Below are positions 13,701-31,086 of a stretch of 64,000 nucleotides of DNA, piece after piece. Numbering within the stretch: position 1 is the stretch's first letter; the number at the start of each line of letters is the position of its first letter. A program made the translations under genes and the position numbers. Where the stretch lies: positions 3,359,119-3,423,118 of the forward strand of contig NZ_MQWB01000001.1 of assembly GCF_002257665.1 (NCBI RefSeq), read 5' to 3'. The notes under the pieces are model-generated. The model was given only the letters and a program-made list of their open reading frames with translations. It made no database searches and had not been told where the DNA came from. Source of the stretch: Rubricoccus marinus (GTDB lineage: Bacteria; Bacteroidota; Rhodothermia; Rhodothermales; Rubricoccaceae).

Positions 13701-16700
13701 CGGAGCCGTCGAGTTCGACGGCCATGAGCACGCTCGCGCCGTTGACGTCTACGCTCGCGCCGATGTCGGTCGCGGTAAGGGCGAGAACGCCGCCGAAGAG
13801 GTCGAGCGCCTGCGGTGGGAGGTCGCCCTGGGCGGCAACGGTGACGTAGGGCGCCCGCGTGGTGAGCGTGAGATCGCGCACGGTAAGCGCGAAGCCGTCG
13901 CCCAGCAGGTCGGTTTTGAACAGGCCCGCGACGGAAAGCGACAGCTCCTGGTCGTTGAGCGTGAAGTCCCAGACCTTCTGCGGGTCGTTCGCGTCTGGGA
14001 TGGGCTCGAACGTCGCGAAGTCCATGTCCAGACCTTCGGCAGGGAGGTTGCCCGCATCGATCTCGCCGCCCCACGCGCCGCTCTCGTAGGCGAGGACGAC
14101 GTGAATGGGCTGTTCATCGCCGTTCTCGTCGGCGTAGAGCGAGGAGTAGACCTGGCCCGACAGGCGGAGCACGCGGCCGCTGGCGCCAGAGGCCACCTCG
14201 GCGCCGCGGAGGGCGACGCGGACGGGGCCGAAGGACTCCTCGTAGATGGGCGTGACGGCCTCTTGCGAGGCGTCGTAGGCGGCGGCGAACTGCCCCAGCG
14301 CGCCCGCGATGTTGTCGAGGCCGCTGGCGCTGACGCTCGCGGAGAGCGCGAAGTCGGCGCCGGTGAGCGCGTCGGGGAGGTCCGCCGTGAGCGAGGCGGA
14401 GAGCTGGCCGTTGGCGAAGGAGAGCGCCGTGAGCGTGACGGGCAGGCCGGTGGGACCGGAGAGGTCCGTCGCGCCCGTCAGCGAGAGCGAGGCGTTGCCG
14501 ACGTTGCCGAGGTCGTCCAGCGTGACGCTAAAGGCGGCCTGCACGACCGTCGCGCCCAGCGCGGGCAAGACGAGGTCGACGGTCTGGTTGGGCGCCGTGG
14601 CGACGGTCGTGCCGTTGCCGTCGCGGGTGACGACGAGCCGCGACTGCCCCTCGGCGTCGGGGCCGATGTCGAGGTAGCCGACGTCCTCGGTCGGTAGCGC
14701 GATGCGCTCGGGGATGAGCGCGAGCGCGGCGCCGATAAAGTCGGCGTGGAAGCCGCTGGCGTCGAGGTAGGCGATGCGGTTGCCGCCGTCCTCGAAGTCC
14801 ACCACGCCAGAGGCCACGCGGACGGGGTCCAGGCCGATCTGGAACTGGCGGAAGTCGAGGTCGAGGTTGCCGTACGTCTCGCCGTTGTACGCGATAAAGC
14901 CCGTCCCGCCCGCATTGAAGCCGACGCCCTGCGGCGTAATGGTGACCTGGCCGCTGGCGGCGAGGCGCGCCGCGGCGCCGACGGGCACGGGCGCCAGAGG
15001 CGAGACGACCGTCCAGTCGAGGGTGGCGTCGAGTTGGAGGTCCAGCGCGGCGGCGGCCTGGATGGTGGCGCTGCCGCCGACGACGTCGCCGGAGAAGCCG
15101 ATGGCGAAGTCAGTGAAGCTGACCGAGGCCGATGACGCATCGCCGGGCAGATCGATGGTGCCGCCGCCGGTGACCTGCACGCGGTCTTGCGTGAGCCGCA
15201 GGCCGTCCACGGTAAAGGCGAACAGCGGATCGGGCGAGCCGAACGGCACGCCGAGCGCCAGAGGCCCGGCGAAGTCGATAAAGCCGTTGTCCAGCTCGCC
15301 GGTGAGGAGGTTGACGGTTCCGCGCCCAACTGCGCGGAGGTCCGGGTCGTTTTCGCGCGCCCAGGTGCCGACGAGGATGCCATCGTAGACCGCGCTCGAC
15401 GCCGCTGGCGAAACGGTGATCGCGAGGGACGAGGTGACGGCGGGAGCCGCCGCATCGGTCGCGGCAAAGGCGACGGTCGCGGGGCCGAAGGCGAGCGAGC
15501 CGCACGGCACGAACGGGCTCGCAACGCCGTTGAAGTCACCCGCGGCGTTCAGCGTGAGCGTCACGTCGGCAGGGACGCAGGCGGCCTCTGGCGCGAAGAG
15601 GTCCGGCGGGTCGAGTTCGCCCGTCAGCGTGAGTTCGATGCCCTGCGCGTTGCCATCGCGGTAGAGGCGGCCGCTGGCGGTCTGGAACGCGAACGCGGCG
15701 CCAGAGGTCGGGTTGAGCGTGACGCTTGCGGCGTCGTCGAAGGTGTACGGCTCCATCGCGCCCACCCACACGCCGCCATCGTATCCGACGCCGTTGAGCA
15801 AGATGGTATCGTCGCCGAGCGCGGGCGCCGCGTCGGCGAGTTCGTCCAGGCGGAGGAGCAGGTCGGCGCGGAGCGCGGTGAGGTCGGGGACGCTGAGCGC
15901 CCACGGGAGCGTGAGGTCGCGCGTGATGTCCAGCGTGACGATCTCCAGCGAGAGCGGGCCGAACGCGACCGGCGGGACGCTGAGCGCGGGCTGGCCGCTG
16001 GCGGAGAGCATCTGCCGGGGCAGACGGAAGCCGCTGTTGGTGACCGTCGCGGACTGGAGCGGGACCGAGACCTTCTGCGTGGCGCCGTCCGGGCCTTCCA
16101 CGTCGAGGAGAAGCGTAAGGTCGAGCGCGACCTCGAAGGCGGGCGCCTGGCCCTGCCGCGGCGTGAGGCTGAGCGTTTTGAGGCTGTCCACGCGCAGCGC
16201 CAGAGGCCCGGCGTCCAGACGGCGGCCGTCGATGCTGGCGCGCGGCGTGAGGCTCGTGACCTGGAAAGAGGCGCCTCTGGCGACGGCTTCGAGGCCAACG
16301 CCCGCGAGCTCGTCGGCGTTGACGTCGCGCAGCGCGAAGTCGGCGCCGAGCGTGAGGGCGAGGCCCGGCTTGGGACCGAGCGCCAGCGGCACGTCGATCA
16401 GGGCGTCCAGACGGTCCACGGTCAGCGTCGCGCTCGCGCCAGAGGCGTCGCCCGCGAGCGTCACGTCGGCGCCGAGGTCGCGGAGCGCGAGGCCGCCGCG
16501 GATGCGGTTGGAGGAGAGCAACAGCGAGGCCGTGCCCGCGTCGCCCAGCGTTTGCTCAAACGCGATGGGATCGCCCGCGAGGTGGAGCCCCCACGTCGGC
16601 ACGCCCGCTACGTCCTGCTCGCCGTAGACGAGCTCGCGGACCTCGAAGGGCACGCCGTACGGCTCCAGCGAGAGCGTGGGCGAGAGCGCGGCGCGGACCT

Positions 16701-19700
16701 CGCCGGCCGAGACCTGGCCGCTGGCGTCCAGCGCGAGGTCGGTGAACTGAACCGCCACGCTCGGCGCCTGGCCTGTGGCCGCGCTTAGCGCCGGTACGGC
16801 GAGCGCCAGAGGCCCGCGCGTGGAAACTGCGATCCCGCCCGAGCCGAGCTCCTGCACGTCCACGAGCGCGTTGCCCTGCGGATCGCGCAAGACGACGTAC
16901 GCCACGTCCTGGGTCGGCAGACCCAGCGTGTCGGGCAAGAGGCCTTCGGCAAAGGCGGGGTCCAGGCGGAAGCCGCTGGCGTCGAGGACCGCGACGCGGA
17001 CGCCAGAGGCTGTGGAGAAGCCCGCCTCGCCTCTGGCGACGCCGAAGGGGAACAGGTCGAGCCCGAAGTCCTGGAAGTCCACGATGGCCTCGGCGTCGAT
17101 GGGGCCGGCCTGGACGGCGGCGCGGGCCTGCCCGCTGGTGCGGATCTGCCCGGCGGAGATCTCGACGCCCTGGCCGAGCGAGAGCAGCGCGCCCGGCGCG
17201 AGGTCCAGGCGGGCCGTATCCGGCACGGCGCGGAAGGCGGGCTCGGAGAACGAATCCAGCCCAGCCTGGAGCGCGAAGGGCGCGTCGAAGAGGATGCGGC
17301 CGTCCAGGCCCAGCCGGTCGAACGGCACGCGGACGGCGTCGAACGTGGCGCCGATCTCGGAGCCGTCGGAGAAGAGCAGCTTCTGGCGCTCGTCCATCGC
17401 GATGCCGCCCAGACCCAGCGTGGCGCCCTGAATCTCGAAGGTCAGCGCCGCGGCCTCTGGCGAAGGGACGGCCCACTGGAACGGCCCGGCGATGGTAGCG
17501 CTGAGCGTGTCGATGCGCGCCGCGTCCAGGTCGAAGCCCGCGAAGCCGACGGCGTTGTCCGTGTCGCTGAGGGCGATCTCGATGTCGCTCGCGAGGTACG
17601 CCTGCGTGCCGCCGCCAGAGGCCCGGTCGAAGGTCAGCGTGGCGCGTGTCACCCGCCCGTCCATCGGGCCGAGTGGGAACGGGCAGGCGAGCGCGGGGAG
17701 TTCAGCCACGCCCGCGATGCTGCCGTCTTGCAGGATGGAGAGATCCAGGTCGGCGCCAGCAGTGGCCGGGCCAGCGCAGCTAAAGGGCGCGCCGAGCTCG
17801 AGCTGCGCCGCGAGGTCCAGCGCGCCATCGCGCACGTCCAGGCTCTGGAGCGAGACGCCGGCGGTCAGCTCGCCGCCCAGACTCTCGATGACGACGGCCG
17901 TGCCGGGCGCGATCTCCAGGCGACAACCATTGAACGCCGTTCCCGCCAGAGGCAGCGTAAGCACGCCGTCGGCGTAGCCCGCCGAGCCCAGGTCCACCTC
18001 GCGGCCTCGGAGGCAGGCTGGCATCGCGGGCGTGTCGGGCATTTTCAGTTTGCTGCGCAGCGCGAAGCGCCACGCGCGGGCGGTGCTGTCGGCCTCTTGC
18101 GCGAGGCTGTCGGCGCTCGCGCGGATCCCGCCGAGCGACGGGAGAGGGATCGTGAGGTCCGGCAGCGTCAGTTCGGTCAGGTCCAGCCCGAAGCCGCCCA
18201 GGCGGACCGGCCGCGCGCCCAAGCTCACGCCAGAGGCCGTGATGGCGGGGACCTCCAGGCCTCTGGCGCTGATGCCGAGGTTCATCTGTGGCAGCGAGAC
18301 GCCGAGAGCCGGGAACGAGAGAGCGCCGTCGAGGTCGAGCGAGGCCAGTTTCCAGCCCGCGTCCTCTGGCGTGGCGGCGGCCGAGGCCGCGGTGTAGGCC
18401 AGGCCGCTCAGGTCGAGGCCCGCGAGGTCCAGCCGCGCGATGCCGAGGTCGAGCGTGCCCGCGTTGCAGCTCGGGCGGAGCTCGCGGGCGGTCGCGCCAG
18501 AGGCGCTGATATCGACCGTGGCGAGGGCGGAGCAGGCGGCCTGCGGGGCGTCGAGCGCGGCGGTCAGGTCGGCGCGGAGGGCGGGCGAAATGTCACCCGA
18601 GGCGAGGTTGCCGGTCAGCGTGCCGCGCACGCCGCCCACCGTGAGCGCGAGCGAGGCGAGCCCGCCAGAGGCCTCCCCAGTAAGCGCGAGCGTTTCGTTG
18701 ACCTCGCACGAGACCTGGGCGGTCAGCTCCGGGCCGGCAAGCGCGAGCCGGCCCAGGTCGCACTCGGGGCCGTTGAAGAGTTGGAGGCGGCCGTCCGCAA
18801 GCGTCTCGCCAGAGGGGAACGCGGCCTGGACGCGCGTGACGACAAGCGAGACGGGGTCCTCGCCCAGTTTGACGAGGCCGCTGGCGTCCTCGGCGACGAG
18901 CGTTCCCGCCACGCCGTTGCGCGTGAGCCGGACGGTGCCCGCTGAACGGATCGTCTGGCCCGCGATGACGAGCTGCGGGTCCGTCAGCGTGAACCCGCCG
19001 CCGACGGTCCACTCCACGGCGCGGAGGCGGAGCACCTCGTCCAACCCGTCGCCCAGTCCCGCCAGGAGCCCCTGGGAGACGCGCGCGCTGAGCCCGCCCG
19101 AGACGAGAACCGGCAGCTCATTGCCGACGCGCTGGATCTCCAGATCGTTGACCTGCACGGTTTGCGTGACCGCCCCGCTGGGCAGTTGCAGTTCGAGCGT
19201 GACCGCGCCGTCCAGCCGCGCGCCGAACTCGTCAACGTCGAGCGTGAGCCTCTGGCGCAGGATGGCGTCGCGCAGGCCGGTAAGGCGCGCGAAGCCAGGC
19301 TCCAGATCCAGAAAGTCGAGATCGGCGACCTGCCCGCCAGAGGCCGACGGGTCGTAGAGGAAAGTGCGGACCTCACTCGCGCCGCCCTCGGTAAAGGCGG
19401 TGAGCCGGTTCTCATCGCGCGCGACGACCTGCCACGCGTAGAGTTGGCCCGGCCGGAGCGCCTGCGGCAGCACGTCGCCCGCGGCGGGGAAGGACGTGGG
19501 CGGCGGCGTGTTCGCGAGGTACGTCAGCGACGAGCCACCCAGCGTGACCTGCGCCCACGGGCGGTTGGCGAGCAGCGCGTCCAGCGGGGTCTGCAGGCGG
19601 CGCACTTCGACGAGGCGGAACTCGTAGGTCACGTCCGCTCCCGGGGCCGCGCTCACGGCGGTCCACGCGAAAACGGGCGCGTCTTGCAGCACGGTCGTCT

Positions 19701-20229
19701 GCTCGGGCGGCGTGATGGGGACGGGCGGCTCGGCGTAGCGGACCGTAAAAATGGCCGTGCCCGGGACCGAGGTCACGAACTGCGCCGGGTCGGTCGGGAC
19801 GGCCTCGGCGGTGAGCTGGTAGAGCCCTTCGGGCAGCGCGCCGGTCTGGCGGATCGTCTCGCCGTCGGCGCCAGAGGCCGTCGCGAGGAGGGTTTCGAGT
19901 GGCGTATCGAACCGCACGTCGGGCCCCGCCAGGGGCAGCGTCGTCGCGCCGGGGCGGACCTCGAAGGGCGCGCTCTCGGCGTCCGCCAGAGGCCGGCCGT
20001 CGACGGTGATCGCGAGGCGCAGACGCACCTCCAGCGGCTCGGCGGTGGGCGCGGAGTAGAGGATCTGGAGCGGGTAGCGCCCGATCTCGACGTCGCGCAC
20101 GAGCTCGCTGAGGTACGGCGACGAGAGCGACGGCGGCACGCCGAGGATTTGCGTCTGGACCGTCCCCTGGGCGGCGGCCTCTGGCGCGGCGAGGGAGAGG
20201 AGAGCGAAAAGAGCGAGCAGTCGTCGCAT
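7777..20229 (-). CDS. Giant secreted protein with TANFOR-like N-terminus (4150 aa)
   Basis: One uninterrupted 4150-codon gene. Residues 1-21 are a signal peptide. Residues ~22-300 look like the Bacteroidota TANFOR domain: a PPSLSSPYLSELV-type start, VRLRLAITV, LPEGLYQLTAEAV, YEFRLVEV and LRPGQLYAWQVVARD in the expected order. Residues ~300-2880 are beta-rich with many LDLSGL/LDASGF-type strands and an internal duplication (~1080 and ~1820). Residues ~2885-2945 form an Ala/Gln coiled coil, followed by a helical part to ~3420 and FN3-like modules to ~4040. The C-terminus holds two ~45-residue copies of a two-cysteine motif. No T9SS sorting domain is visible. The stop of the beta-barrel gene is 3 bases upstream. 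Function unknown; an envelope-spanning fibre or passenger is inference. Confidence 0.85.
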   Translation of the reverse strand: MRRLLALFALLSLAAPEAAAQGTVQTQILGVPPSLSSPYLSELVRDVEIGRYPLQILYSAPTAEPLEVRLRLAITVDGRPLADAESAPFEVRPGATTLPLAGPDVRFDTPLETLLATASGADGETIRQTGALPEGLYQLTAEAVPTDPAQFVTSVPGTAIFTVRYAEPPVPITPPEQTTVLQDAPVFAWTAVSAAPGADVTYEFRLVEVRRLQTPLDALLANRPWAQVTLGGSSLTYLANTPPPTSFPAAGDVLPQALRPGQLYAWQVVARDENRLTAFTEGGASEVRTFLYDPSASGGQVADLDFLDLEPGFARLTGLRDAILRQRLTLDVDEFGARLDGAVTLELQLPSGAVTQTVQVNDLEIQRVGNELPVLVSGGLSARVSQGLLAGLGDGLDEVLRLRAVEWTVGGGFTLTDPQLVIAGQTIRSAGTVRLTRNGVAGTLVAEDASGLVKLGEDPVSLVVTRVQAAFPSGETLADGRLQLFNGPECDLGRLALAGPELTAQVSCEVNETLALTGEASGGLASLALTVGGVRGTLTGNLASGDISPALRADLTAALDAPQAACSALATVDISASGATARELRPSCNAGTLDLGIARLDLAGLDLSGLAYTAASAAATPEDAGWKLASLDLDGALSFPALGVSLPQMNLGISARGLEVPAITASGVSLGARPVRLGGFGLDLTELTLPDLTIPLPSLGGIRASADSLAQEADSTARAWRFALRSKLKMPDTPAMPACLRGREVDLGSAGYADGVLTLPLAGTAFNGCRLEIAPGTAVVIESLGGELTAGVSLQSLDVRDGALDLAAQLELGAPFSCAGPATAGADLDLSILQDGSIAGVAELPALACPFPLGPMDGRVTRATLTFDRASGGGTQAYLASDIEIALSDTDNAVGFAGFDLDAARIDTLSATIAGPFQWAVPSPEAAALTFEIQGATLGLGGIAMDERQKLLFSDGSEIGATFDAVRVPFDRLGLDGRILFDAPFALQAGLDSFSEPAFRAVPDTARLDLAPGALLSLGQGVEISAGQIRTSGQARAAVQAGPIDAEAIVDFQDFGLDLFPFGVARGEAGFSTASGVRVAVLDASGFRLDPAFAEGLLPDTLGLPTQDVAYVVLRDPQGNALVDVQELGSGGIAVSTRGPLALAVPALSAATGQAPSVAVQFTDLALDASGQVSAGEVRAALSPTLSLEPYGVPFEVRELVYGEQDVAGVPTWGLHLAGDPIAFEQTLGDAGTASLLLSSNRIRGGLALRDLGADVTLAGDASGASATLTVDRLDALIDVPLALGPKPGLALTLGADFALRDVNADELAGVGLEAVARGASFQVTSLTPRASIDGRRLDAGPLALRVDSLKTLSLTPRQGQAPAFEVALDLTLLLDVEGPDGATQKVSVPLQSATVTNSGFRLPRQMLSASGQPALSVPPVAFGPLSLEIVTLDITRDLTLPWALSVPDLTALRADLLLRLDELADAAPALGDDTILLNGVGYDGGVWVGAMEPYTFDDAASVTLNPTSGAAFAFQTASGRLYRDGNAQGIELTLTGELDPPDLFAPEAACVPADVTLTLNAAGDFNGVASPFVPCGSLAFGPATVAFAATDAAAPAVTSSLAITVSPAASSAVYDGILVGTWARENDPDLRAVGRGTVNLLTGELDNGFIDFAGPLALGVPFGSPDPLFAFTVDGLRLTQDRVQVTGGGTIDLPGDASSASVSFTDFAIGFSGDVVGGSATIQAAAALDLQLDATLDWTVVSPLAPVPVGAAARLAASGQVTITPQGVGFNAGGTGFIAYNGETYGNLDLDFRQFQIGLDPVRVASGVVDFEDGGNRIAYLDASGFHADFIGAALALIPERIALPTEDVGYLDIGPDAEGQSRLVVTRDGNGTTVATAPNQTVDLVLPALGATVVQAAFSVTLDDLGNVGNASLSLTGATDLSGPTGLPVTLTALSFANGQLSASLTADLPDALTGADFALSASVSASGLDNIAGALGQFAAAYDASQEAVTPIYEESFGPVRVALRGAEVASGASGRVLRLSGQVYSSLYADENGDEQPIHVVLAYESGAWGGEIDAGNLPAEGLDMDFATFEPIPDANDPQKVWDFTLNDQELSLSVAGLFKTDLLGDGFALTVRDLTLTTRAPYVTVAAQGDLPPQALDLFGGVLALTATDIGASVDVNGASVLMAVELDGSAVLLDKTLTVDGLRVRSDGDVSLASGEAVLFRDIAVIPDAFVVDEVSIVAGQNVASGLALKLAATATLPAPVASSASMTARIDRTGRPTITGPTFDFANNPNTEFAIPGDFGTLKLTAAALDLNIAQPAQSALLATGVLYVENDRSDPTKHIYFGQAADILTDYGVRLTASGETAWRVSSSSVSTSNPLEFEYDFFRFALTALQIETNVQRPNGGNLPFRLTLGGRAGFALDAVEGSAGFEDFIVSTEGVENIGRFAGGATFTLSEIFSLTVGEFTYAENETLQMERRASGARGSAETEMVDVAVRQYLRFGDGAANPALRISFTDAFVGGIAEVLFYEETNGAFEIALTDVEMAMSDAASLKASMRYRQVPNEGFLFEVAGGGTFGQTGFGAAGKISTLNDELRFGIFAAATVPIPIIPVIIELDGIGGGFFYRPEIDDFRLVETALAGATANGRPFRLVGPTPEVSDLKFAAFLYAGASVIKEPSMGTAMLKGHVLLTVTDQFTKLDVNTTMYGQSNPGTNLLAADMYLTVLYGSGASGVEGGVAFYAEFGPALDAEAGLDFFALKQGSGPAVWGIDGYLEADVLSFLEADGDFMAGPDGMLLDLTVEVSGDLAIVSAEAGMDLLVWNLPNGTNPFGAYAGLYIGFDVLGGLAALRADAKGLFLKRSDALYEVYLAGSATVTVAFVFDGTIAGWVKGDSRGDVDWGTGRNADLDAAIQQARADASGAQTKAQEAQSEMAAAKDALAAAQAALAAELANPANYRVSASDIRLAGTHMLLANKGPWDVPASAARGPVLDAVIADERALFGTAAFSDPGTYEGWLYTNVMRGSTADQQSGYYGQRSASTPFAGNAHSESQPAVRASQADADAVAQKIQAVSAEADQVAQRLAAARTVLGSLATQLRDATTSGDPAAFNVPNPVSAIRPAVVGAGGQVLQSPGFTYDVAAYDAGADALDGFDADLAALDQAYRDALGAAAASAKLVDLVLDGASAVNWGAGLPDISAVETTGTAVNAVGYGFVNASLDLDGYYAYAVQRLWDLREWASTREALLPSLPLASGGAMRTAVRNAAHWRDAWMNNGLSATEAQEIGEAGAERLRAIWKFNGNVSEGTSRANDFIASVNNLRQSPNNTTLRNSVRATFNQAADQFWLEMPKRGLAEVVTASESAVQRLVTAYDAQRPALTTAHATFTSTIDEMYGLKAGMLVSTYGMIEQYEAWRTDAGLPAASGVRNARADVVDALAPPDIAYLRLEGDTDDAGLRMASVIWGVGHPVGVPELSYAFRVNGPSLASVYDDVPYLTSGTASPGDGWFPDANIAIQEFPMLRRSRTQTAARTTLYVRARSAGGVTATRYVQATVPLAEGGTSTQGQGGSVDGTDATPPAVPTAVLPNTRRAGTTWAPDSSRLDLVLSSRDPESGIAQWEVALGTTRGGTDVRNWEVFQGDRSTSTQATGWGGWGAGDAIAGTLYGLNLGSTPVYLSVRATNGAGAVSSVYTRYEGITHDATPPEVTLSVAPEAPVVIPPAGPAVQRPAVRARAEWDAQRIEFDTSDIDAETVDVTWDGSDPESGISHYDLGWVAASGVARFDSTNQGWGWNQQSRFNSRTAAFPFPFTGSFRIIARAQNQAGGLSAPVVTEPIRRADPTRPTTPTVRVWPALGGPVLTLSRVSRDNESGILGYQVAVGSAPGLDDLRAWPRDSLRVDWTVPEDVALRPAAQHLTWRYARDGEQWVSVRAINGQGVASRATTSLVVHDPTAPVVSEASVSFERDRAGRITAQVRATPPQDPETGVVSATVKVRVPRFGGRSLVGATTVIEVPLAPNGQASAGLTATEAARLPAPGSDIAITIEARNGVGRTSSRTAWVAYQPPEALLDAYGACVIDAEASGVSAREAVQQCVERAGMPRPDADGLRRMIQEEEERRRGGGASAALTRCLDNSLELDPADAVRSCRENLGLPRLSDPDLKAAVAAEEQRRAAR

Positions 20230-20232
20230 GGG

Positions 20233-21984
20233 CTAGAAGCGGCGGCTGTAGGCGACGCGGGCGCGGACCTCCTGGAAGGACGGCGCGCCGGCGTCGGCAG
20301 CGGACGTGAAGCCGGTGACCTGGAGGCGCAGCGCGTCGCCAGAGGCGAGGCGGTAGGTGCCGGTCAGGGTGCCGGTGAAATGGGTCTGGGTAAAGCTGCC
20401 GACGGCGTAGTCGGCCGTCGTGCGCGCGACGCCCGCGCTCGCGGCGAGGTTGAGGGCGCGCTCGAGAAAGGCCTGCCCGGCGCCGAGCGTGAGGCCGGTG
20501 CGGAGCGAGCTGTTCTCGCCCAGCGCGGACCGGGCGGCGTCGGCGGTGGCGGTGAGCGTGAGGCCGGAGGGCGCGGCGAACGCGTAGCTGGCCGCGCCAG
20601 AGGCGTTGTCGGCCTCGGCGCCGGGGCGCGTGCCGTCCAGCACGTCGGCGGAGCGGTCGCGCGAGCGGACAAGCGTGGTGGCGAGCGTGGCGGTGTGGGT
20701 GAGGCCGGACTCGCGGCGGAGGCTCAGCGTCGGCGCGAGCGTAACGGTCTGGGTGGTCTGGAGCAGGCCGGGATCGGGCGTGGCCTGTGGCCCCGAGCCG
20801 AAGACGCCCGCCTCGCGCTCGTTGCGGAGCCCGTTGTAGGCGGCGGTCAGGCTCAGCCATTCGGTCGGCCGCGCGAGGACCGTCCCGCCGAAGCCCAGCC
20901 GCTCGCCAGAGGCGATCTCCTGGTCCGAGAGGTTGGTGGCCGTGCGCGAGAAGTCGCCGGTGAGCGCCAGGCGGCCTTCGAGCATCGTCGCGCGGGGGCG
21001 GAGGCGGAACGTCGCCTCGTCGTCGCGCAGGCGCGGCGCGCCAAGGGTCCGGTAGCCGGGGGCGACGCGGCTGTAGGAGGCGTCGAGCGCCAGGCCCAGG
21101 TCGCTCGCAAGGCCGAGCGCGGCGAGGTCGGCGAAGAGGTCGGCCTCGTAGGCGTTCTGCGCGAAGGCCCCGGCGCGCGAGACCGCCAGCGGGCGGAGGT
21201 AGCCGGGGATCTCGCCGTCGCCAGAGGCCGCGTCCAGATCGGGCGTGAACGCGCTCGTAGCTGCCAGGCCGCGCAGGCGGATCGCGCCGTCCAGCAAGGA
21301 GACGCCGGCCTCTGGCGCGAGCGTCGCGCTGGCGCGGGGGCGCAGGAGGAAGTCCTCGGCGTCGAGGCCAAACTCGTCGAGCGATCCTGCGACATCGCGC
21401 GCGACGGCGAGAGAGAGCCCCCCGAACGTGCCGCTCGGGTTGCCGACGCGCACGCGGCCCGCCCACAGGTACTGCTCGTAGGCCTGGAGCCCGGCGCCAG
21501 AGGCCGCGTTGCCCTCGGCGGTGATGCCGCTCTCGGCCTGACGCGTGCGCCCGCCTCCAGCGAGGACCTCGATGCCGGAGCGGCGGAGCTGAAGCAACCC
21601 GCCGCGCGGCGTGAGGCCGGAGAGCACGTACGGCGAAAGGGTCGGGGACACGTCGCCCAGTTCGGCCCCGCCCCAGGACCACCGCGTCGCGAGCCGGATG
21701 CGGTCGAGGTCTTGGCGAAACTCGGTCCCCTCGTCGCTGGACAGCGAGAGCGAGAGCCGCGTGCCGATGCCGAAAAGCGAGAACCGCGCGTTCGCGCCCA
21801 CGCGCCCCAGCAGCCCCGGCCGCCGCGCCTCGATGCCGCTGGCGCCGTAGGCCTCGCCAGAGGCCGTGACCGAGCCGCTGAGCTCCAGCGGGCCCAGCGA
21901 GGTCTGCGCGCGGGCGCCCGTCACGAGGGCCTCTGGCGCGAGGACCGCGAGGGTTAGGATCAGGAGAGGGAAGCGAAAAAGCAC
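20233..21984 (-). CDS. Outer-membrane beta-barrel protein
   Basis: Signal peptide (MLFRFPLLILTLAVLAPEAL) followed by alternating amphipathic strands and a C-terminal strand ending in RVAYSRRF, the terminal aromatic signature recognised by the BAM machinery. At about 583 residues it could form a large barrel; no plug or TonB box is seen, so it is not an obvious TonB-dependent receptor. The GTG at 21984 is chosen because the shared promoter-like element ends at 22012; a GTG at 22005, preceded by AGAGGGGG, would add seven residues. First gene of the operon with the 4150-aa, FN3 and TPR genes; the stop is 3 bases from the next start. It may anchor or export the giant protein (inference). Confidence 0.8.
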   Translation of the reverse strand: MLFRFPLLILTLAVLAPEALVTGARAQTSLGPLELSGSVTASGEAYGASGIEARRPGLLGRVGANARFSLFGIGTRLSLSLSSDEGTEFRQDLDRIRLATRWSWGGAELGDVSPTLSPYVLSGLTPRGGLLQLRRSGIEVLAGGGRTRQAESGITAEGNAASGAGLQAYEQYLWAGRVRVGNPSGTFGGLSLAVARDVAGSLDEFGLDAEDFLLRPRASATLAPEAGVSLLDGAIRLRGLAATSAFTPDLDAASGDGEIPGYLRPLAVSRAGAFAQNAYEADLFADLAALGLASDLGLALDASYSRVAPGYRTLGAPRLRDDEATFRLRPRATMLEGRLALTGDFSRTATNLSDQEIASGERLGFGGTVLARPTEWLSLTAAYNGLRNEREAGVFGSGPQATPDPGLLQTTQTVTLAPTLSLRRESGLTHTATLATTLVRSRDRSADVLDGTRPGAEADNASGAASYAFAAPSGLTLTATADAARSALGENSSLRTGLTLGAGQAFLERALNLAASAGVARTTADYAVGSFTQTHFTGTLTGTYRLASGDALRLQVTGFTSAADAGAPSFQEVRARVAYSRRF

Positions 21985-22011
21985 GTGGGGGCGCGGGCGG
22001 CTCACCCCCCT

Positions 22012-22094
22012 CTACATGGTTTTCCGCGGCACCTCGTCACGCGGCGCTCATTTTTTTTCGGTCAGGTGACGAGGTGGGCGCCAAATCCATGTAG
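22012..22094. promoter_or_regulatory. Symmetrical divergent promoter/operator between the two giant-gene units
   Basis: An inverted repeat with arms CTACATGG-N10-CACCTCGTCAC (22012-22040) and GTGACGAGGTG-N10-CCATGTAG (22066-22094); the N10 spacing is identical in both arms, with a T-rich centre (22051-22058). Read outward, each arm offers GTGACG, 17 bases, then ATGTAG, so each may be a promoter for its own side. It may also be a dyad operator. Left start codon at 21984/22005, right at 22153. Confidence 0.65.
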
Positions 22095-22152
22095 TGGGAA
22101 GTGACCGAGCCTCCCCGATGCCGCCGCTGGCGCGCCTTCGCCCCCCGACTCC

Positions 22153-25100
22153 GTGCTTCGTTTTCTCGTTTCCTCGCTCTTCTTCGTGCTCCTCGCGGGC
22201 GCGCCGCTGGCGCAGACCGTGACGTGGACCGGCGGTGGCGACGGCACCTCGTGGAGCGACGGCGCGAACTGGAGCACGGGCACAACGCCCGGCCCCAGCG
22301 CCGACGCGGTGGTCGACCTTCGGGACGCCGCGACCGTCGTGGACGAGCCGCTGACCATCGGCTCGCTCTCGCTGACGGCCATCAACGCGTCCATCGCGCT
22401 GAGTGCGCCTCTGGCGGTAAGCGGCGACGTGCGCTTCGACCACGCGAACGCACGCATCACCGGGCCCGAAGACCTCACCATCGACGGGCGCCTGCGCTGG
22501 AAGAGCGGCACCTTCCAGAGCGACGCCGCTGCGCCCGCCACCGTTCTCGCCAGAGGCGGCGCGACGTTTACAGGAGCCTCGGCATCATCCGGCAACGTCA
22601 AAAACCTGGACGGCTCGCGGCTCGTGCTCGCCTCCGGGACCGAAAGCGACTTCGCGGCCTGGTACTTTTATGGGCTCAACGGCGGCACCCTGGAGGTGCA
22701 GGAAGGCGCCACGCTGGAGTTCTCAGAGAGCGGGACTGTCAACGTGTTCCGCGTGGGCGCCGGCTCCACGCTCGCTCCTCAGCTTGTCGTGGACGGCACG
22801 CTCACGCGCTCGGCGGCGGGCTCGCCTTTGGAGATCCAATGGGGGGCGCGGGTCGCCGGCGAGGTCGCGGTGACGGCGCCAGAGGCCAAGCTGGTGTTCG
22901 AGGGCGCCTTCGAGGACCAGAACGCCACCTACCGCGCCGGGGCGGGCACGCTCGTGCTCGGGCCGTCGGACGACGTGCCGGTCGTCTTCGGCGAGGGGAG
23001 CCAGTTCCTCGTGGCCTCTGGCGCCACGCTCGGCCTCGCCAGAGGCGACCTCGAACTCCGTGGCCTGCTGGACAACGGCGGCACGCTCGCGCTCGGCACG
23101 GACGCCAACGTCGGCGGCAATGGCGTGGCCGTGACGCTTCCGGCATCGCTCTCGGTGGAGCGGCTCGGCGGCGACGCGCTCCGCATCGGGCAACGCGCGA
23201 CGGTCACGCTCGCGCGCACCGCGCCGCTTTCCGTCGCCTCGCTCTACATCGACTTCCAGGGCGTGCTCAACCTCAACGGGCCTCTGGCGGTAAGCGGGGA
23301 CCTCACGCTCTGGGACCAGTCCTCGCGGCTCTCGGCGCCAGAGGCCGTCACGGTGGGCGGGCGCCTGACGTGGCGCGGCGGGCGCATCGAGGGCGGCGGA
23401 ACGGTAGAGGCCAACGGCGGCGTCTCGTTTATCGGCGAGGGCGCGTCGGCGTCGTACACGAAGGCGCTGGACGGCACGAAGCTGGTGCTCCCCGGCGGCA
23501 CGAGCAACACCTACGAGGCGTGGTACTTCTTCGGCGCCAACGGCGCCGAGCTGGAGATTCAGGAGGGCGCCACGCTGGACCTCTCGGTCGGGCAGATGTA
23601 CCGCGGCTTCTGGGTGGAGGCGGGCAGCACCGCCCCGCCGGTCCTCGACGTCGATGGCACGCTGGTCCGCAGCGCGTCCTCGTTCCCGTCCTTCCGGCTG
23701 GATTGGGACAGCGAGATCAGCGGCACGCTGCAGCTAGAGACAGCGGACGAAGAGATCCAGATCCGCGGGGCGCTCACGGACGAAGGCGGCACCTACAGGG
23801 TCACGGCCGGAAGCCTGGTGTTCGGCACGCCCGACGGCACCTCGGTCCTTCTGACCCCGTCGAGCCAGATCCTCGTCAGCCCCGGCGCGACTCTGGGCGT
23901 GGCGCGCGGTGACGTCACGGCCTCTGGCGCGTTCGACGTCGGCGGAACGCTCGCGATCAAGGACGCCAGCGGCCTCGGGGGGGCGGGCGGCTCCCTCACC
24001 CTGCGCGAGGGCATCGGGCTGGAGCGCCTCGCGGGCGACGGCCTCATCGTGGGCGGCAACCGGGGAACGTTGATCCTGGAGCCGGGGCTGGCCTCGACGG
24101 TTCCCAGCCTCGCTATCGGCTTTGGAGGCACGCTCGACCTGAGATCGGACCTGACGGTAACGGGCGCGTTCGAGCACGCCAACTCCAGTGCCCGCGTGCA
24201 AGGCCCCCGCACGCTGACCGTTCGGGGGCTCACGACGTGGACGGGCGGGGTCCACGCGGGCGAGGGCGAAACGCGGTTCGAGGGTGGCCTGACAGCGCTC
24301 CAGAATGGTGGCTCGGCGAGCTGGTACAAGCGCATCGAAGGCCGCACCCTGACCGTCGCCTCTGGCGAGACCGCCGCGTGGCCCGGCTCGGCCCGGACGA
24401 CCGTGAGCGACGGCGGGCGCCTCGTGATCGAGCCCGGCGCGGCGCTGGACCTCTCGGCAGACGGCCCGGACTGGCGCACCGAAGGCACCGGGGGAACGCT
24501 GGACCTCCAGGGAGACCTCGTGTTTACGGGCGACTTCTCTTGGTCGATGGCCTGGGATGTGGAGAACACCGGCACGGCGAGCGTCTTGGGCGCAGGCACC
24601 CGCATCACGGGCACGTGGGACAACACGCCGGACGGGCGGCTCCAAGGTGAGGGCCAGATCGACCTGGACAACGGCACCGGCGCCCTCGTAAACCGCGGCG
24701 TCGTGGCGCCAGAGGACTCGGACGGCGGCACGGCCATCCTCCCCGTCCGCGGCAACTGGGCGGCCGGACCGGGCACGCTGGACATCGGGATCGGCGGGAC
24801 GGAGCCGGGGACGGGGCACGACCAACTCACGGTCACGCGCACGGCCACGCTCTCCGGCACGCTCCGCGTGCGCCTCGCCGACGGGTACGCGCCAGAGGCC
24901 GGGGCGGAGTACGCCATCGTGACGGCCAACGCGCTCGCGGGCTCGTTCGACGAGACCGATCTGCCGGCGGGCTTCGAGGTCGTCTACGAGCCCACGCGCG
25001 TGCTGCTGCGGGCCTCTGGCGCGGGCGGCCCCGGCCTCGCGGACTCGCCGTGGCCGATGCAGGGGGGCGACCTCGCCCACACGAACCAGGCGCCGGTGGA

Positions 25101-28100
25101 GGGCCCGACCGGCCTCGCGCTGGACTGGGAGTACGACGCGGGCGTCAGCTTCGCGCTCGTCAACCAGCCCGTCCTGGGCGAGGACGGCACGCTTTACACG
25201 TCCGACATCGGGGACTTCCTGTTCGCGGTCAACCCGGACGGGACCGAGCGGTGGCGGGCCGAAACCGGCGGCGTGCGCAACAGCGCTGCCGTCGCCGAGG
25301 ACGGCACGATCTACTCCGGCTCTAGCGACGGCGGCCTGTATGCCATCAATCCGGACGGCAGCCAGAAGTGGCGCTTCAACGCTGGGGATCGCGTCAACAC
25401 CTCGCCCGCCATCGCGCCCGATGGCACGGTCTACATCGCCTCCAACGCGCAGAAGCTTTTCGCGGTCAACCCGGATGGAACGCTCAAGTGGGAGCGCAAC
25501 CTGGGCGGCTTCGCGCTGTCCTCGCCCGCCGTGGCGGAGGACGGAACGGTGGTGACGGGAAGCTCCGCCGGCAACGTCGTCGCCTTCGCGGCCGACGGCT
25601 CGTTCCGGTGGAACGCGGCATTCGAGGGCGTCACCCGCTCCCCCACCCTCACGCCCGATGGGCGCGTGCTGGTGGGGCTGGACGAGCGCTTCGTCGCGCT
25701 CGGGCTGGAGACGGGCTCTCAGATCTGGGAGCGCGTCGGCGTGACGCAGGGTGAGACGCCCGGCTACCTCGCGGGGGCAACGCCGCTCACGTTCGCTCAG
25801 AGCGGAAACAGCCTGGTCGCGCTGAGCGTGGCCTCTGGCGAGACCGTGTGGGAGGTGGACCTCGGTGAGAACACGTTCCCGTCCGCCGTCACGCTTGACG
25901 CGCTGGGCAAGGCCTACGTGCTCCGCCGGTTTCCCGGCGAGACGGGCGCGCTCCTCGTCCTCGACGCCGCCTCTGGCGCCGTCCTCTCCACCACGCCCAT
26001 CGACGCCCGGCTGGAGCGGGCGCCGATCCTGGACGACCAGGGCCGCGTGATCGTGCCGACGTACGACGGGCTCCTGGCGTTTACCGCCGCGGGCGGTCCG
26101 GTCCTCAGCGTCTCGCCAGAGGCCCTCGGCTTTGGCGAGGTCGCGGCGGGCACGACGGAGACGCGCACGCTTCAGCTGAGCAACACCGGTGGCTCGCCGC
26201 TGACCGTGTTCGACGTGTACGAGGGCGGCGCCCAGCCCGCCTTTGCCGCCGCCTTCGACGACGCCGTCCTGATCGCGCCCGGCGCGAGCGTGGACGTAGC
26301 GATCACGTTCACGCCGCCAGAGGCCGGCGCCTTCGAGGGGCAGATATTCGTCGAGTCCGACTCCGAGGAGAGCAGCTTTGTAACCGTCCAGGTCACCGGA
26401 ACGGGCATCGAGAGCGCCACGCCGCCTCTGGCGCGCGACGACGAGGCGACCACGCCCGAGGACACGCCGGTCACCGTGCAGGTGCTGAACAACGACACGA
26501 GCACCGTCAGCGAGCCGCTGGCGATCACGGCGACGACCGCCCCCGCCAACGGCGCCCTCGCGCTCACCAACGGCGGCACGCGCATCCGTTACACGCCAGA
26601 GGCGGACTTCTTCGGGACGGACAACTTCACCTACACCATCACCGACTCCGGTGGCAGCGATACGGCAACGGTGACCGTCACGGTCTCGCCCGTGAACGAC
26701 GCGCCCGTTGCGCAGGACGACGAGGCCACGACCAATCAGGACACGCCCGTCACCATCGCCGTGCTCGCCAACGACGCCGACGTGGACAGCGGCACGCTGA
26801 GCGTGGCCGAGACGACGACGCCCGACAACGGCTCGGTCGAGATCATCGCCGGCGGCTCCGCCGTGCGGTACACGCCAGTGGCGGGCTTCTCCGGCACGGA
26901 CTCGTTCGCCTACACCGTCAGCGACGGCGAGGGCGGGACAGACACCGCCACCGTAACGGTGACGGTCACCGCTGTTGTCCTGCCGCCCATCGCGCGAAAC
27001 GACGCCGCGGCAACGCCCGAGGACACCGCCGTCCGCATCAGCGTGCTCGCCAACGACGAGAGCCGGGTCAGCGAGCCTCTGGCGATCACGGCCACGACCG
27101 CGCCCGGCAACGGCGCCGTGGAGGTGGACGGCGCAGCGATTCTCTACACGCCCGCATCCAACTTCTTCGGGACCGACAGCTTCACCTACACCATCACCGA
27201 CTCCGGCGGCAGCGATACGGCAACGGTCACCGTCACCGTCGCGCCCGTCAACGACGCGCCGCTGGCGACCGACGACGAGGCCGCGACCGACGAGGACACG
27301 CCGGTCACCGTTCAGGTGCTCGCGAACGATTCCGACATCGACAGCGAGACGCTCACGGTCGCGAGCGTCACCCAACCGGCCTCTGGCGCGGCCGTGATCG
27401 TGAGCGGCGGGACGCGCGTGCGCTACACGCCAGAGGCCGACTTCTTCGGGACGGACGCCTTCACGTACACCGTCGCCGACGGCGCGGGCGGGACCGATAC
27501 GGCCACCGTGACCGTGACCGTCGCGCCCGTCAACGACGCGCCGGTGGCGCAGAACGACGCCGTCGCAACGCAAGAGGACACCGCGGTCCGCGTCGACGTG
27601 CTGGCCAACGACGCGGACGCCGACGGCGACGCGCTGAACGTCGCGAGCGTGACCGCGCCGGCCTCTGGCGCCGCGGTGATCATCGAGGGCGGCGCGGCGG
27701 TCCGCTACACGCCCGCGCTAGACTTTGTGGGGACGGACAGCTTCACCTACACCGTCGCCGACGGCAATGGCGGGACCGATACGGCGACCGTGACGGTGCA
27801 GGTCGGCGGCACGAACGACGCGCCGGTGGCTGCCGACGACGCGGCGAGCACGCCAGAGGATCAGGCCGTCGAGATCGCGGTCCTCGCCAACGACTCCGAC
27901 CCGGATGGCGACGCCCTCACGGTCTCCGCGCTCGGCACTCCCGCCAGCGGCTCGGTCACGACCAACGGAACGACGGTCACGTACACGCCCGCTCCGGACT
28001 TCAACGGGACGGACCTCTTTACCTACACCATCACCGACGGCGTGCTCACGGCCTCGGCGGCGGTCACGGTCACGGTGACGCCCGTCAACGACGCGCCTCT

Positions 28101-31086
28101 GGCGGAGGCGGACGCCGCGACAACGGCCGAGGACGCCGCGATCACGATCGCCGTCCTCGCGAACGACGCCGACGCCGACGGCGACGCACTAGCGGTCTCC
28201 AGCCTTACCCAACCCAGCAACGGGACCGCCACCACGGACGGCGCGACGGTCGTGTACACGCCAGAGGCCGACTTCTTCGGCACCGACACGTTTGCCTACA
28301 CCGCGAGCGATGGCAACGGCGGAACGGACACGGCGACGGTCACGGTCACGGTCACGCCCGTCAACGACGCGCCTCTGGCGCAGGACGACGCGGCGTCGAC
28401 GAGCCCGAACGAGGCGGTCGAGATCGCGGTCCTCGCCAACGACTCCGACGTGGACGGCGACGCCCTGACCGTCACGGAGGCGACCGGCGCGGCCAACGGC
28501 ACGCTCGCGACCAACGGCGAGACGGTGACCTACACGCCCGCCCCCGGCTTCCGCGGGACCGACAGCTTTGCATACACGGTCTCGGACGGCGCGCTGACCG
28601 CGACGGCGACCGTCACCGTCACCGTCGGCGGCAACGCTCCGCCTCTGGCGGCCGACGACGACGCAACGACGCCAGAGGACCAGGCCGTAACGGTCGCGGT
28701 CCTCGCGAACGACAGCGACCCGGACGGTGACGCCCTGACGGTCTCCAGCGTGACGCAGCCCGCCTCTGGCGCCGCCGAGACCGACGGCGTGACCGTTACC
28801 TACACGCCCGCGCCGGACTTCAACGGCACGGACCGATTTACCTACACGCTCGCCGACGGCGCCGGCGGGAGCGCGACGGCCACGGTCACCATTACCGTCA
28901 CGCCCGTCAACGACGCGCCTCTGGCGAGCGATGACAGCGCCGTCACGCCAGAGGCCACGGCCGTCGAGATCGCCGTGCTGGCCAACGATTCGGACCCGGA
29001 CGGCGACGCGCTGAGCGTCGCGAGCGTCACGCCGCCCGCCTCTGGCGGCACGGCCACGACCGACGGCACCACGGTCACGTTCACGCCCGCGTCCGGGTTT
29101 AACGGCACGGTCGCGTTTACCTACACCGTCACGGACGGCGATCTCACCGATACCGCCGAGGTCACCGTAACGGTCAGCGGCGCCAACCTCCCGCCCATCG
29201 CGCGCGACGACGCGGCGCCCGTCCGCCCCGGCGACTCGGTCCTGATCGACGTGCTCGCCAACGACGAGGACCCCGAAGGCGGCGCGCTCACCATCGCGTC
29301 TGTCGGCACGCCCGCCTCTGGCGGCACGGCTGCGCCAGAGGCCGGGCAGATCCGCTACACCGCGCCCTCGGGCTTTAGCGACACGGACACGTTCACCTAC
29401 ACCGTCTCCGATCCGCAGGGCGCGACCGCGACGGCCACCGTCACCATCACGGCGCAGGCCTACCGCTTCGCGCTGACGGACCTGGGGACGCTTGGTGGCG
29501 CGCGATCCGCCGCGATGGCGGTCGCCGCCGACGGCCGCGTGGTCGGCACGGCGGAGGACGCCGGGGGCGCGCTCCGCCCCACGCTCTGGCGCACCGGAAC
29601 GGGCGCCGCCACGCCAGAGGCCCTCGGCCTGCCAGGCGCGCCCTCGGGCTTCGCGACGGCCATCGACGGGCAAACCGTAGTGGGCGTGCAGTACGGCGCG
29701 GGCGGCGAGGCCGAGGCGTTCCGCACGGGGACGGGCACGCTTCCCGGGCTGGGCGGCACGCTTACCAACGCCTACGGCGTGCGCGAGGGCGGCGCGACGG
29801 TGGGCTCGTCCGCTCCGGCCTCTGGCGGGATCGAGGCGCTGGCGTGGGACGAAGCCGGCGCGGCCACGCCGCTCGGCACGTTCGGGCTCGCGCGCAGCGA
29901 GGCGTTCGGCGTCTCCCCGCTTGGCCTCGTCGTCGGCTATGCGCAGTCTGACGTGGACGCCCGCGCCTTTGCCGGCGCAGACCTGCTCTCCGGCGCTGAC
30001 GGGCGCGCCTACGCCGCGAACGTCTCGGGCGTCGTCGTGGGCAGTATCGGCAACGGCACGGGCGACGTCAGCGCGGTCCGTTGGACCGGGGGAGGCGCGC
30101 CAGAGGTGCTGGACGGCCTCGGCGGCGGCTTTGCCGAGGCGTACGCCATCAACAGCGCGGGCTGGGTGGTAGGCGCCTCTGGCGCGGAAGCAGGCCCTGC
30201 TGCGAAGAGCGGCGGTGCGCCCGCGCGCGGGCCGCTCCCGCTGGGCGGGCGCCTGGCGCCAGAGGCCCAGACGCTGGGCGGCGGTGCGCCTGCCGAAACA
30301 TCCAGCATCAAGCGCTCCGCCAGAGGCGCGGAGGTGCAGAAGGCGGGAGCCTCTGGCGCGATCGAGACGCGCGCGGTGTTGTGGGTGGACGGCCAAACCC
30401 TCGACCTCGGGACGATCATCGACGTGCCGGGCTGGACGCTGCTGGAAGCGCGCGGCATCAACGACGCGGGCCAGATCGCCGGGACGGGGCTTTTCAACGG
30501 CCAGCCTCGCGCCTTCCTCCTCACACCGACTGACAACGCGGCGCCTCTGGCGGTGGCAGACCGCGCAGAAACCGCGATGGGGCAATCCGTTGAGATCGCG
30601 CTGGTCGCCAACGACCGGGACGACGACGGCGACGCGCTAACGGTGGCGGCGCTTCTCGCGCCTGAGCACGGCAGCGTCCAGGCAGCCGGGCCTCTGGCGG
30701 CGCGCTACACGCCCGCGCCGGGCTTCACCGGCGAGGACACCTTCGGCTACACCCTCGCCGACGGGCGGGGCGGATTGGCTCAGGCCGAGGTCCGCGTTCT
30801 GGTCCGCGCCGAGGCGCCAGAGCCCTTCGCGCTTCGCACGCCCGCGCCCAACCCCGCCTCTGGCGACATCGCGTTCGCGTTCACCCTGGACGCGCCCCAA
30901 GACGACGTGCGGCTGGACGTGACCGACCTGCTCGGCCGCTCCCTCGCCGTCGCAACGGAGGGCGCGCGAGACGCAGGCGAGCACACCGTTCGGTTCGACG
31001 TGCGCGGGCTCGCGCCCGGCACTTACGTCTGCCGCCTCCTCGTAGGCGGTCAGGCGCTGATGCGCACCTTTACCGTCGTGCGCTAA
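22153..31086 (+). CDS. Giant T9SS cargo: PQQ-type propeller, tandem Big_9/cadherin-like repeats, HAF repeats
   Basis: A 2977-residue extracellular protein. A signal peptide is followed by residues ~20-960 with a WTGGGDGTSWSDGANWS start and repeated beta-helix-like units (YFYGLNGGTLEVQEGATLEF and a diverged second copy). Residues ~966-1310 are a PQQ/outer-membrane-type beta-propeller (WPMQGGDLAHTNQ, YAINPDGSQKWRF). Residues ~1316-1419 are a HYDIN/choice-of-anchor-like module. Residues ~1424-2434 hold 11 tandem ~92-residue repeats with VLANDSDPDGD and FTYTV(A/S)DG. HAF-type repeats (DLGTLGG) follow, then a twelfth Big_9 unit, and from ~2890 a T9SS type A sorting domain with PAPNP, LLGR, LAPGTYVCRL and final FTVVR. 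GTG start with no Shine-Dalgarno sequence. It should be exported by T9SS and left on the surface or released. Confidence 0.9.
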   Translation: MLRFLVSSLFFVLLAGAPLAQTVTWTGGGDGTSWSDGANWSTGTTPGPSADAVVDLRDAATVVDEPLTIGSLSLTAINASIALSAPLAVSGDVRFDHANARITGPEDLTIDGRLRWKSGTFQSDAAAPATVLARGGATFTGASASSGNVKNLDGSRLVLASGTESDFAAWYFYGLNGGTLEVQEGATLEFSESGTVNVFRVGAGSTLAPQLVVDGTLTRSAAGSPLEIQWGARVAGEVAVTAPEAKLVFEGAFEDQNATYRAGAGTLVLGPSDDVPVVFGEGSQFLVASGATLGLARGDLELRGLLDNGGTLALGTDANVGGNGVAVTLPASLSVERLGGDALRIGQRATVTLARTAPLSVASLYIDFQGVLNLNGPLAVSGDLTLWDQSSRLSAPEAVTVGGRLTWRGGRIEGGGTVEANGGVSFIGEGASASYTKALDGTKLVLPGGTSNTYEAWYFFGANGAELEIQEGATLDLSVGQMYRGFWVEAGSTAPPVLDVDGTLVRSASSFPSFRLDWDSEISGTLQLETADEEIQIRGALTDEGGTYRVTAGSLVFGTPDGTSVLLTPSSQILVSPGATLGVARGDVTASGAFDVGGTLAIKDASGLGGAGGSLTLREGIGLERLAGDGLIVGGNRGTLILEPGLASTVPSLAIGFGGTLDLRSDLTVTGAFEHANSSARVQGPRTLTVRGLTTWTGGVHAGEGETRFEGGLTALQNGGSASWYKRIEGRTLTVASGETAAWPGSARTTVSDGGRLVIEPGAALDLSADGPDWRTEGTGGTLDLQGDLVFTGDFSWSMAWDVENTGTASVLGAGTRITGTWDNTPDGRLQGEGQIDLDNGTGALVNRGVVAPEDSDGGTAILPVRGNWAAGPGTLDIGIGGTEPGTGHDQLTVTRTATLSGTLRVRLADGYAPEAGAEYAIVTANALAGSFDETDLPAGFEVVYEPTRVLLRASGAGGPGLADSPWPMQGGDLAHTNQAPVEGPTGLALDWEYDAGVSFALVNQPVLGEDGTLYTSDIGDFLFAVNPDGTERWRAETGGVRNSAAVAEDGTIYSGSSDGGLYAINPDGSQKWRFNAGDRVNTSPAIAPDGTVYIASNAQKLFAVNPDGTLKWERNLGGFALSSPAVAEDGTVVTGSSAGNVVAFAADGSFRWNAAFEGVTRSPTLTPDGRVLVGLDERFVALGLETGSQIWERVGVTQGETPGYLAGATPLTFAQSGNSLVALSVASGETVWEVDLGENTFPSAVTLDALGKAYVLRRFPGETGALLVLDAASGAVLSTTPIDARLERAPILDDQGRVIVPTYDGLLAFTAAGGPVLSVSPEALGFGEVAAGTTETRTLQLSNTGGSPLTVFDVYEGGAQPAFAAAFDDAVLIAPGASVDVAITFTPPEAGAFEGQIFVESDSEESSFVTVQVTGTGIESATPPLARDDEATTPEDTPVTVQVLNNDTSTVSEPLAITATTAPANGALALTNGGTRIRYTPEADFFGTDNFTYTITDSGGSDTATVTVTVSPVNDAPVAQDDEATTNQDTPVTIAVLANDADVDSGTLSVAETTTPDNGSVEIIAGGSAVRYTPVAGFSGTDSFAYTVSDGEGGTDTATVTVTVTAVVLPPIARNDAAATPEDTAVRISVLANDESRVSEPLAITATTAPGNGAVEVDGAAILYTPASNFFGTDSFTYTITDSGGSDTATVTVTVAPVNDAPLATDDEAATDEDTPVTVQVLANDSDIDSETLTVASVTQPASGAAVIVSGGTRVRYTPEADFFGTDAFTYTVADGAGGTDTATVTVTVAPVNDAPVAQNDAVATQEDTAVRVDVLANDADADGDALNVASVTAPASGAAVIIEGGAAVRYTPALDFVGTDSFTYTVADGNGGTDTATVTVQVGGTNDAPVAADDAASTPEDQAVEIAVLANDSDPDGDALTVSALGTPASGSVTTNGTTVTYTPAPDFNGTDLFTYTITDGVLTASAAVTVTVTPVNDAPLAEADAATTAEDAAITIAVLANDADADGDALAVSSLTQPSNGTATTDGATVVYTPEADFFGTDTFAYTASDGNGGTDTATVTVTVTPVNDAPLAQDDAASTSPNEAVEIAVLANDSDVDGDALTVTEATGAANGTLATNGETVTYTPAPGFRGTDSFAYTVSDGALTATATVTVTVGGNAPPLAADDDATTPEDQAVTVAVLANDSDPDGDALTVSSVTQPASGAAETDGVTVTYTPAPDFNGTDRFTYTLADGAGGSATATVTITVTPVNDAPLASDDSAVTPEATAVEIAVLANDSDPDGDALSVASVTPPASGGTATTDGTTVTFTPASGFNGTVAFTYTVTDGDLTDTAEVTVTVSGANLPPIARDDAAPVRPGDSVLIDVLANDEDPEGGALTIASVGTPASGGTAAPEAGQIRYTAPSGFSDTDTFTYTVSDPQGATATATVTITAQAYRFALTDLGTLGGARSAAMAVAADGRVVGTAEDAGGALRPTLWRTGTGAATPEALGLPGAPSGFATAIDGQTVVGVQYGAGGEAEAFRTGTGTLPGLGGTLTNAYGVREGGATVGSSAPASGGIEALAWDEAGAATPLGTFGLARSEAFGVSPLGLVVGYAQSDVDARAFAGADLLSGADGRAYAANVSGVVVGSIGNGTGDVSAVRWTGGGAPEVLDGLGGGFAEAYAINSAGWVVGASGAEAGPAAKSGGAPARGPLPLGGRLAPEAQTLGGGAPAETSSIKRSARGAEVQKAGASGAIETRAVLWVDGQTLDLGTIIDVPGWTLLEARGINDAGQIAGTGLFNGQPRAFLLTPTDNAAPLAVADRAETAMGQSVEIALVANDRDDDGDALTVAALLAPEHGSVQAAGPLAARYTPAPGFTGEDTFGYTLADGRGGLAQAEVRVLVRAEAPEPFALRTPAPNPASGDIAFAFTLDAPQDDVRLDVTDLLGRSLAVATEGARDAGEHTVRFDVRGLAPGTYVCRLLVGGQALMRTFTVVR

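Follow-up and report, generated by a model that had tools for sequence, protein, structure and literature searches.

A mirrored, promoter-like sequence pair between two divergent giant-gene units of Rubricoccus marinus

Introduction

Two transcription units that contain very large genes diverge from a 168-bp intergenic region in Rubricoccus marinus, and the locus raises the question of whether both are read from a single mirrored element, and by what kind of factor. The window analysed here is the whole 64-kb stretch of DNA that surrounds this region. On the minus strand, the leftward unit begins with a gene for a 583-aa outer-membrane-barrel-like protein (20233-21984), for which no Pfam or NCBIfam family was matched. 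The second gene encodes a 4150-aa giant protein (7777-20229) without a match to any Pfam family. Next come genes for a 670-aa protein, which weakly matches a fibronectin-type model, and for a TPR protein. On the plus strand, the rightward gene (22153-31086) encodes a 2977-aa secreted protein with tandem-95/Big_9/cadherin-like repeats; 12 stretches match models of these types, and the tail gives a weak Por secretion match below the cut-off.

The start of the barrel gene sets the left edge of the intergenic region. A start at 21984, as suggested in the first-pass annotation, is likely: this GTG is the choice of a simple codon-usage caller and yields a signal peptide beginning VLFRFPLLILTLAVLAPEA. 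An in-frame GTG at 22005 is retained as the alternative, although it lies on or beside a predicted transcription start.

Results and discussion

Sequence and geometry of the arms

The intergenic region contains two mirror-image arms of 39 nt each (22002-22040 and 22066-22104), which face outward, one towards each divergent gene, as GTGACGAGGTG-N10-CCATGTAG. The core of the left arm (22012-22040, minus strand) reads GTGACGAGGTG CCGCGGAAAA CCATGTAG, and that of the right arm (22066-22094, plus strand) reads GTGACGAGGTG GGCGCCAAAT CCATGTAG, the blocks being identical in the two arms. The match widens to 39 nt through AAA ahead of CCATGTAG and GGG and GTGA behind it. Hence, the full left arm, directed towards the barrel/4150-aa operon, is GTGACGAGGTG-CCGCGGAAAA-CCATGTAG-A-GGG-GG-GTGA, the full right arm, directed towards the 2977-aa gene, is GTGACGAGGTG-GGCGCCAAAT-CCATGTAG-T-GGG-AA-GTGA, and the consensus of both, from the centre to the outside, is GTGACGAGGTG-N6-AAA-N-CCATGTAG-N-GGG-NN-GTGA. 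The gap between the arms (22041-22065), read directly from the sequence, is 25 bp and includes a T8 tract at 22051-22058.

Within each 11-nt inner block (22030-22040, minus strand; 22066-22076, plus strand), the hexamer GTGACG occupies a position like that of a -35 box (22035-22040 and 22066-22071, respectively). The 8-nt outer blocks (22012-22019 and 22087-22094) include ATGTAG as a -10-like hexamer at 22012-22017 on the minus strand and at 22089-22094 on the plus strand. In both arms the hexamers are separated by 17 nt, and the blocks lie about two helical turns apart. From outer box to preferred start codon the distance is 27 nt on the left and 58 nt on the right, and these two boxes account for all TA steps of the 168-bp region, with one step each.

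The mirrored arms with identical internal spacing, a 25-bp separation and differing N10 had been described before, and this description was borne out: as reverse complements the arms match at 29 of 39 positions, a value reached by none of 60 dinucleotide shuffles of the intergenic region (best shuffle, 23). The arm pair is the longest close inverted repeat in the window, and the pattern GTGACG-N16..18-ATGTAG occurs there twice, against an expectation of 0.01. The arms gave the top inverted-repeat score (z 4.7) in a sample of 31 divergent intergenic regions that came from the window and from twenty 20-kb stretches of the same genome; the runner-up (z 3.5) is built on a genome-wide repeat. The differences between the arms concentrate in the spacer (permutation P about 0.01-0.03). 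However, a gapped alignment reduces the N10 differences to a single insertion offset by a single deletion, and the clustering is therefore modest evidence.

Likeness between the two gene starts was also considered as the remnant of a larger inverted duplication that includes the leaders and signal peptides. The local score was reached by only 3 of 500 shuffles, yet the leader similarity of the two genes ranked 12th among 364 gene 5' ends, as for other signal-peptide genes. It is therefore attributed to generic signal-peptide similarity, and the larger duplication was rejected.

Search for further copies

The 19-base motif is present in exactly two copies in the 4.43-Mb genome, both at this locus. 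When three mismatches were allowed, seven other sites were found against nine for the control, and the loose form GTGACG-N17-ATGTAG with up to two mismatches gave 145 genome matches against 158 for reversed controls. No copy was found in 59 relatives or in about 85,000 species genomes of another collection, in which the own genome is perhaps not included. In 225 sampled upstream regions, CCATGTAG was found only at this locus (two sense and two antisense counts). With two copies, a loose form at control level and relatives without it, the motif is not a common promoter or regulon motif. The expectation that a genome search would uncover a regulon, with one regulator acting on many targets, thus failed. 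The mirrored, promoter-like pair is real, statistically strong and private to the locus.

A strand-polarised (KOPS-like) role of GTGACGAGGTG was likewise rejected, as the bias seen among the matches listed was absent in sampled DNA. Separately, in sampled stretches of G000:C1, the strand preference of GGGNAGGG flips near 1.9-2.1 Mb, where counts are small; this switch resembles, and might be, a chromosome-segregation (KOPS-like) signal. A further repeat, the 10-mer CGCCAGAGGC, is a species-specific, highly iterated motif, with 14,176 copies in the 4.43-Mb genome (about 3 per kb) against 61 for the reversed control. It is about three times denser between genes than within them, occurs in the window at, for example, 21855-21865 and 21928-21938, and has 99 copies in one genome of the same genus and 8-77 in others. 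In its high iteration it resembles the HIP1 repeat of cyanobacteria.

Promoter class

The region was compared with known promoter types. No housekeeping Bacteroidota-type -10 (TAnnTTTG) was recognised, TAnnTT and TAnnnT being absent from both strands of 21985-22152, and no E. coli-type sigma-70 site (TTGACA-N16..18-TATAAT) was found in 21000-23000. GTGACG fits the sigma-70 consensus at 4 of 6 positions and ATGTAG does not fit. In the 225 upstream regions the enriched words, the genome-wide repeat aside, were TAGCTT, TATCTT, TAGGTT and TAGCTTG, and TA[GT][CG]TT occurred upstream of genes 31 times in sense, 16 times in antisense and 8 times in reversed orientation, a sense bias that is consistent with a Bacteroidota-like -10. 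The arms are unlike this TAGCTTG-type -10 of their own genome; if promoters, they would therefore belong to another class or depend on an activator.

In sequence layout the arms fit a back-to-back divergent promoter pair. As in known pairs that control functionally linked genes, two outward-facing elements, here promoter-like, lie between divergent genes at a distance short enough for common use of upstream DNA and of regulators; unlike in those pairs, the elements here are near-identical over 29-39 nt, locus-private and different from the common -10 of the genome. In the bidirectional promoters of E. coli with a symmetrical -10, the -10 elements overlap and the starts are 10-23 bp apart, most commonly 18 (PMC12825309). 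The common feature is sequence symmetry, which drives divergent transcription there (PMC12825309) and would do so here, but a distance of about 97 bp is predicted between the starts in this region, where the -35-like boxes rather than the -10 boxes are central. An overlapping arrangement was not found, as 82 bp separate the outer ends of the two outer boxes (22012 and 22094), with the predicted starts outside them.

Comparison with relatives

By profile, the barrel family was detected in 26 of the 114 order genomes and in 114 of the 244 class genomes, with weak and partial matches among the latter; at order and class loci the barrel gene is often followed by a giant gene. This barrel-like family, which has no Pfam or NCBIfam model, is thus seen in about half of the class, usually with a next gene of 2100-4150 aa, and its profile also weakly touches proteins of about 910-930 aa. 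A second scan of genome contigs with the barrel protein returned no relative.

In order- and class-wide searches the divergent partner was found only in G015, a genome from another family of the same order, which is the only other examined locus with the same divergent gene pair. Identities to the proteins of R. marinus are 39% for the barrel, 31.5% over 3088 aa for the barrel-adjacent giant and 34% over 901 aa for the partner, the last corresponding to the N-terminal region of the 2977-aa protein. The G015 intergenic region also contains a mirrored, outward-facing bipartite pair, although with other letters, TGTCCGGTC-N7-GGTTTT-N-CGTTT. This pair was equalled by none of 60 shuffles, ranked first among 25 divergent regions sampled there (z 5.6), and has two matches in its genome at zero mismatches and none further up to three. 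Between the genomes the arms align at shuffle level; within each genome their score exceeds that of all 200 shuffles. Hence, the layout recurs with the gene pair and the letters do not. The first-to-last box offset is 23 nt in both genomes, equal to 17 nt between hexamers, but as the letters differ, there are just two cases behind the common spacing of the boxes. The earlier expectation of a motif conserved in relatives and shared with other promoters accordingly held for the architecture, in G015, and not for the letters or for other promoters. The best reading of these alignments is that the arms co-diverge within each lineage, which would point to one factor reading both.

Upstream of barrel genes with other neighbours, mirrored arms were mostly absent; the exception is a repeat conserved among three species of a single genus (family f4), at a site with no called divergent partner gene. 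In genus g7, three species have a second copy of the barrel gene with a conserved 30-nt inverted repeat roughly 160-270 nt upstream of it (loci L120-L122; L092, about 1190-1275) and no divergent partner gene called there. A homologue of the partner in G006, from the same family as R. marinus and without a barrel, had no such element in its upstream DNA, as judged by eye.

Interpretation of the arms

We lean towards the view that the arms are two back-to-back promoters of the same class, read by one holoenzyme for joint production of the surface units; such a pair is the simplest account. Each arm would be a bipartite promoter of 28-39 nt, with inner box GTGACGAGGTG, outer box CCATGTAG and 17 nt between the hexamers. 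The promoters would point outward, to the barrel and 4150-aa operon on one side and to the 2977-aa repeat protein on the other. Both arms would be read by a single holoenzyme, which would most likely contain a non-housekeeping sigma factor or work with an activator dedicated to them, so that the two units would be made together. Transcription would start about 7 nt past ATGTAG, near 22005 and 22101, and the central T8 tract may serve as a shared UP-like upstream element.

In favour of promoters are the identical blocks with the same spacing and outward orientation, the restriction of TA steps to the outer boxes, and the fact that the similarity of the arms ends near the arms themselves. Against them, the boxes fit no tested promoter consensus and the motif is not enriched genome-wide; furthermore, a purely regulatory element or one of duplication origin would look alike. 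The proposal in the first-pass annotation of two promoter copies or one operator therefore survives in part, in that spacing, orientation, start distances, TA steps and the G015 layout favour two outward promoter-like copies, while its wider regulon does not. On this evidence the arms are probably promoters, or activator sites that overlap promoters, of a non-housekeeping class. Given a distant relative with the same layout in other letters, it is probable that something specific to this locus activates both units jointly.

A tentative alternative is that each arm is a site for the same asymmetric DNA-binding regulator, an activator or repressor, and is placed over or just upstream of an otherwise weak promoter; the mirror symmetry would then mean that one regulator controls both units. 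Blocks of 11 and 8 nt, about two helical turns apart, exceed typical sigma boxes, and retention of each genome's own letters in both arms is expected from co-evolution with a locus-specific regulator. However, no regulator gene was found among the locus neighbours checked, the intergenic region has no second promoter-like -10, and outward polarity with 17-nt hexamer spacing in both genomes fits promoters directly. We consider it improbable that the second arm is instead a local inverted copy, made by replication template switch and kept alike in each lineage by hairpin-templated correction, with shared recognition incidental. The DNA hairpin, at -29.2 kcal/mol (z -6.3), is far better than those of shuffles, and arms that are alike within a genome and at chance level between genomes would follow, as would N10 spacers that differ by a single insertion and a compensating deletion. 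Against such copying are the clustering of differences in the spacer and the exactly restored spacing; in addition, the layout would have to have originated on two occasions at one homologous gene pair and seldom at other loci. The hairpin potential could also suggest that the repeat acts as a structure, whether an RNA or DNA hairpin, a bidirectional terminator, an invertible segment or the end of a mobile element. This is very improbable, as predicted transcripts begin at the outer edges and would exclude the hairpin, Rfam and terminator scans at the locus gave no match, a typical invertible promoter segment is longer than 25 bp and, unlike for a mobile element, there are no further copies.

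A more specific, and rather doubtful, form of the promoter-pair reading is a promoter class private to each lineage that keeps this gene pair and confined to one locus, with a sigma factor or an activator of its own, perhaps of the kinase-linked ECF type. The recognition letters would have been fully turned over with the mirror layout and 17-nt spacing kept, and both arms would have to change together.

Candidate sigma factors

In families f4 and f16, both from elsewhere in the class, the barrel-giant operon was observed to diverge from a kinase-linked ECF-type sigma gene (L086:13498-16705, L087:13210-16411, L088:4563-7770, L183 and L186). In f4 an ECF sigma factor gene (PF07638) and a Ser/Thr kinase gene diverge from the barrel; in f16 there is a similar sigma-like gene, the kinase itself having been seen in f4. 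ECF43-type sigma factors are activated by Ser/Thr kinases, as in EcfP/PknT and EcfK/PknS (PMC8999054, PMC13147305), and members of this group carry QTTA or STTA (PMC13147305, PMC8999054). The two ECF sequences that were read have NTTA or QKTA in this place. The genome of R. marinus has 14 PF07638 matches, at least eight of them good, with a kinase-like motif near nine of the ten best, seven of the typical HRD type. The likeness to ECF43/kinase systems is that such sigma genes adjoin barrel-giant operons divergently elsewhere and occur in this genome. The difference is that there is no ECF-type sigma gene at this locus; arm-like motifs near the ECF genes of R. marinus were at background. A kinase-linked ECF sigma factor as the reader of the arms is therefore a lead only.

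Significance

If the promoter-pair reading is true, two very large secreted proteins and a barrel partner would form one regulated surface programme, and the locus would be a clean case of a private promoter pair that changes its recognition letters in step. It also supplies two predicted transcription starts that can be tested, in a phylum for which few promoters have been mapped.
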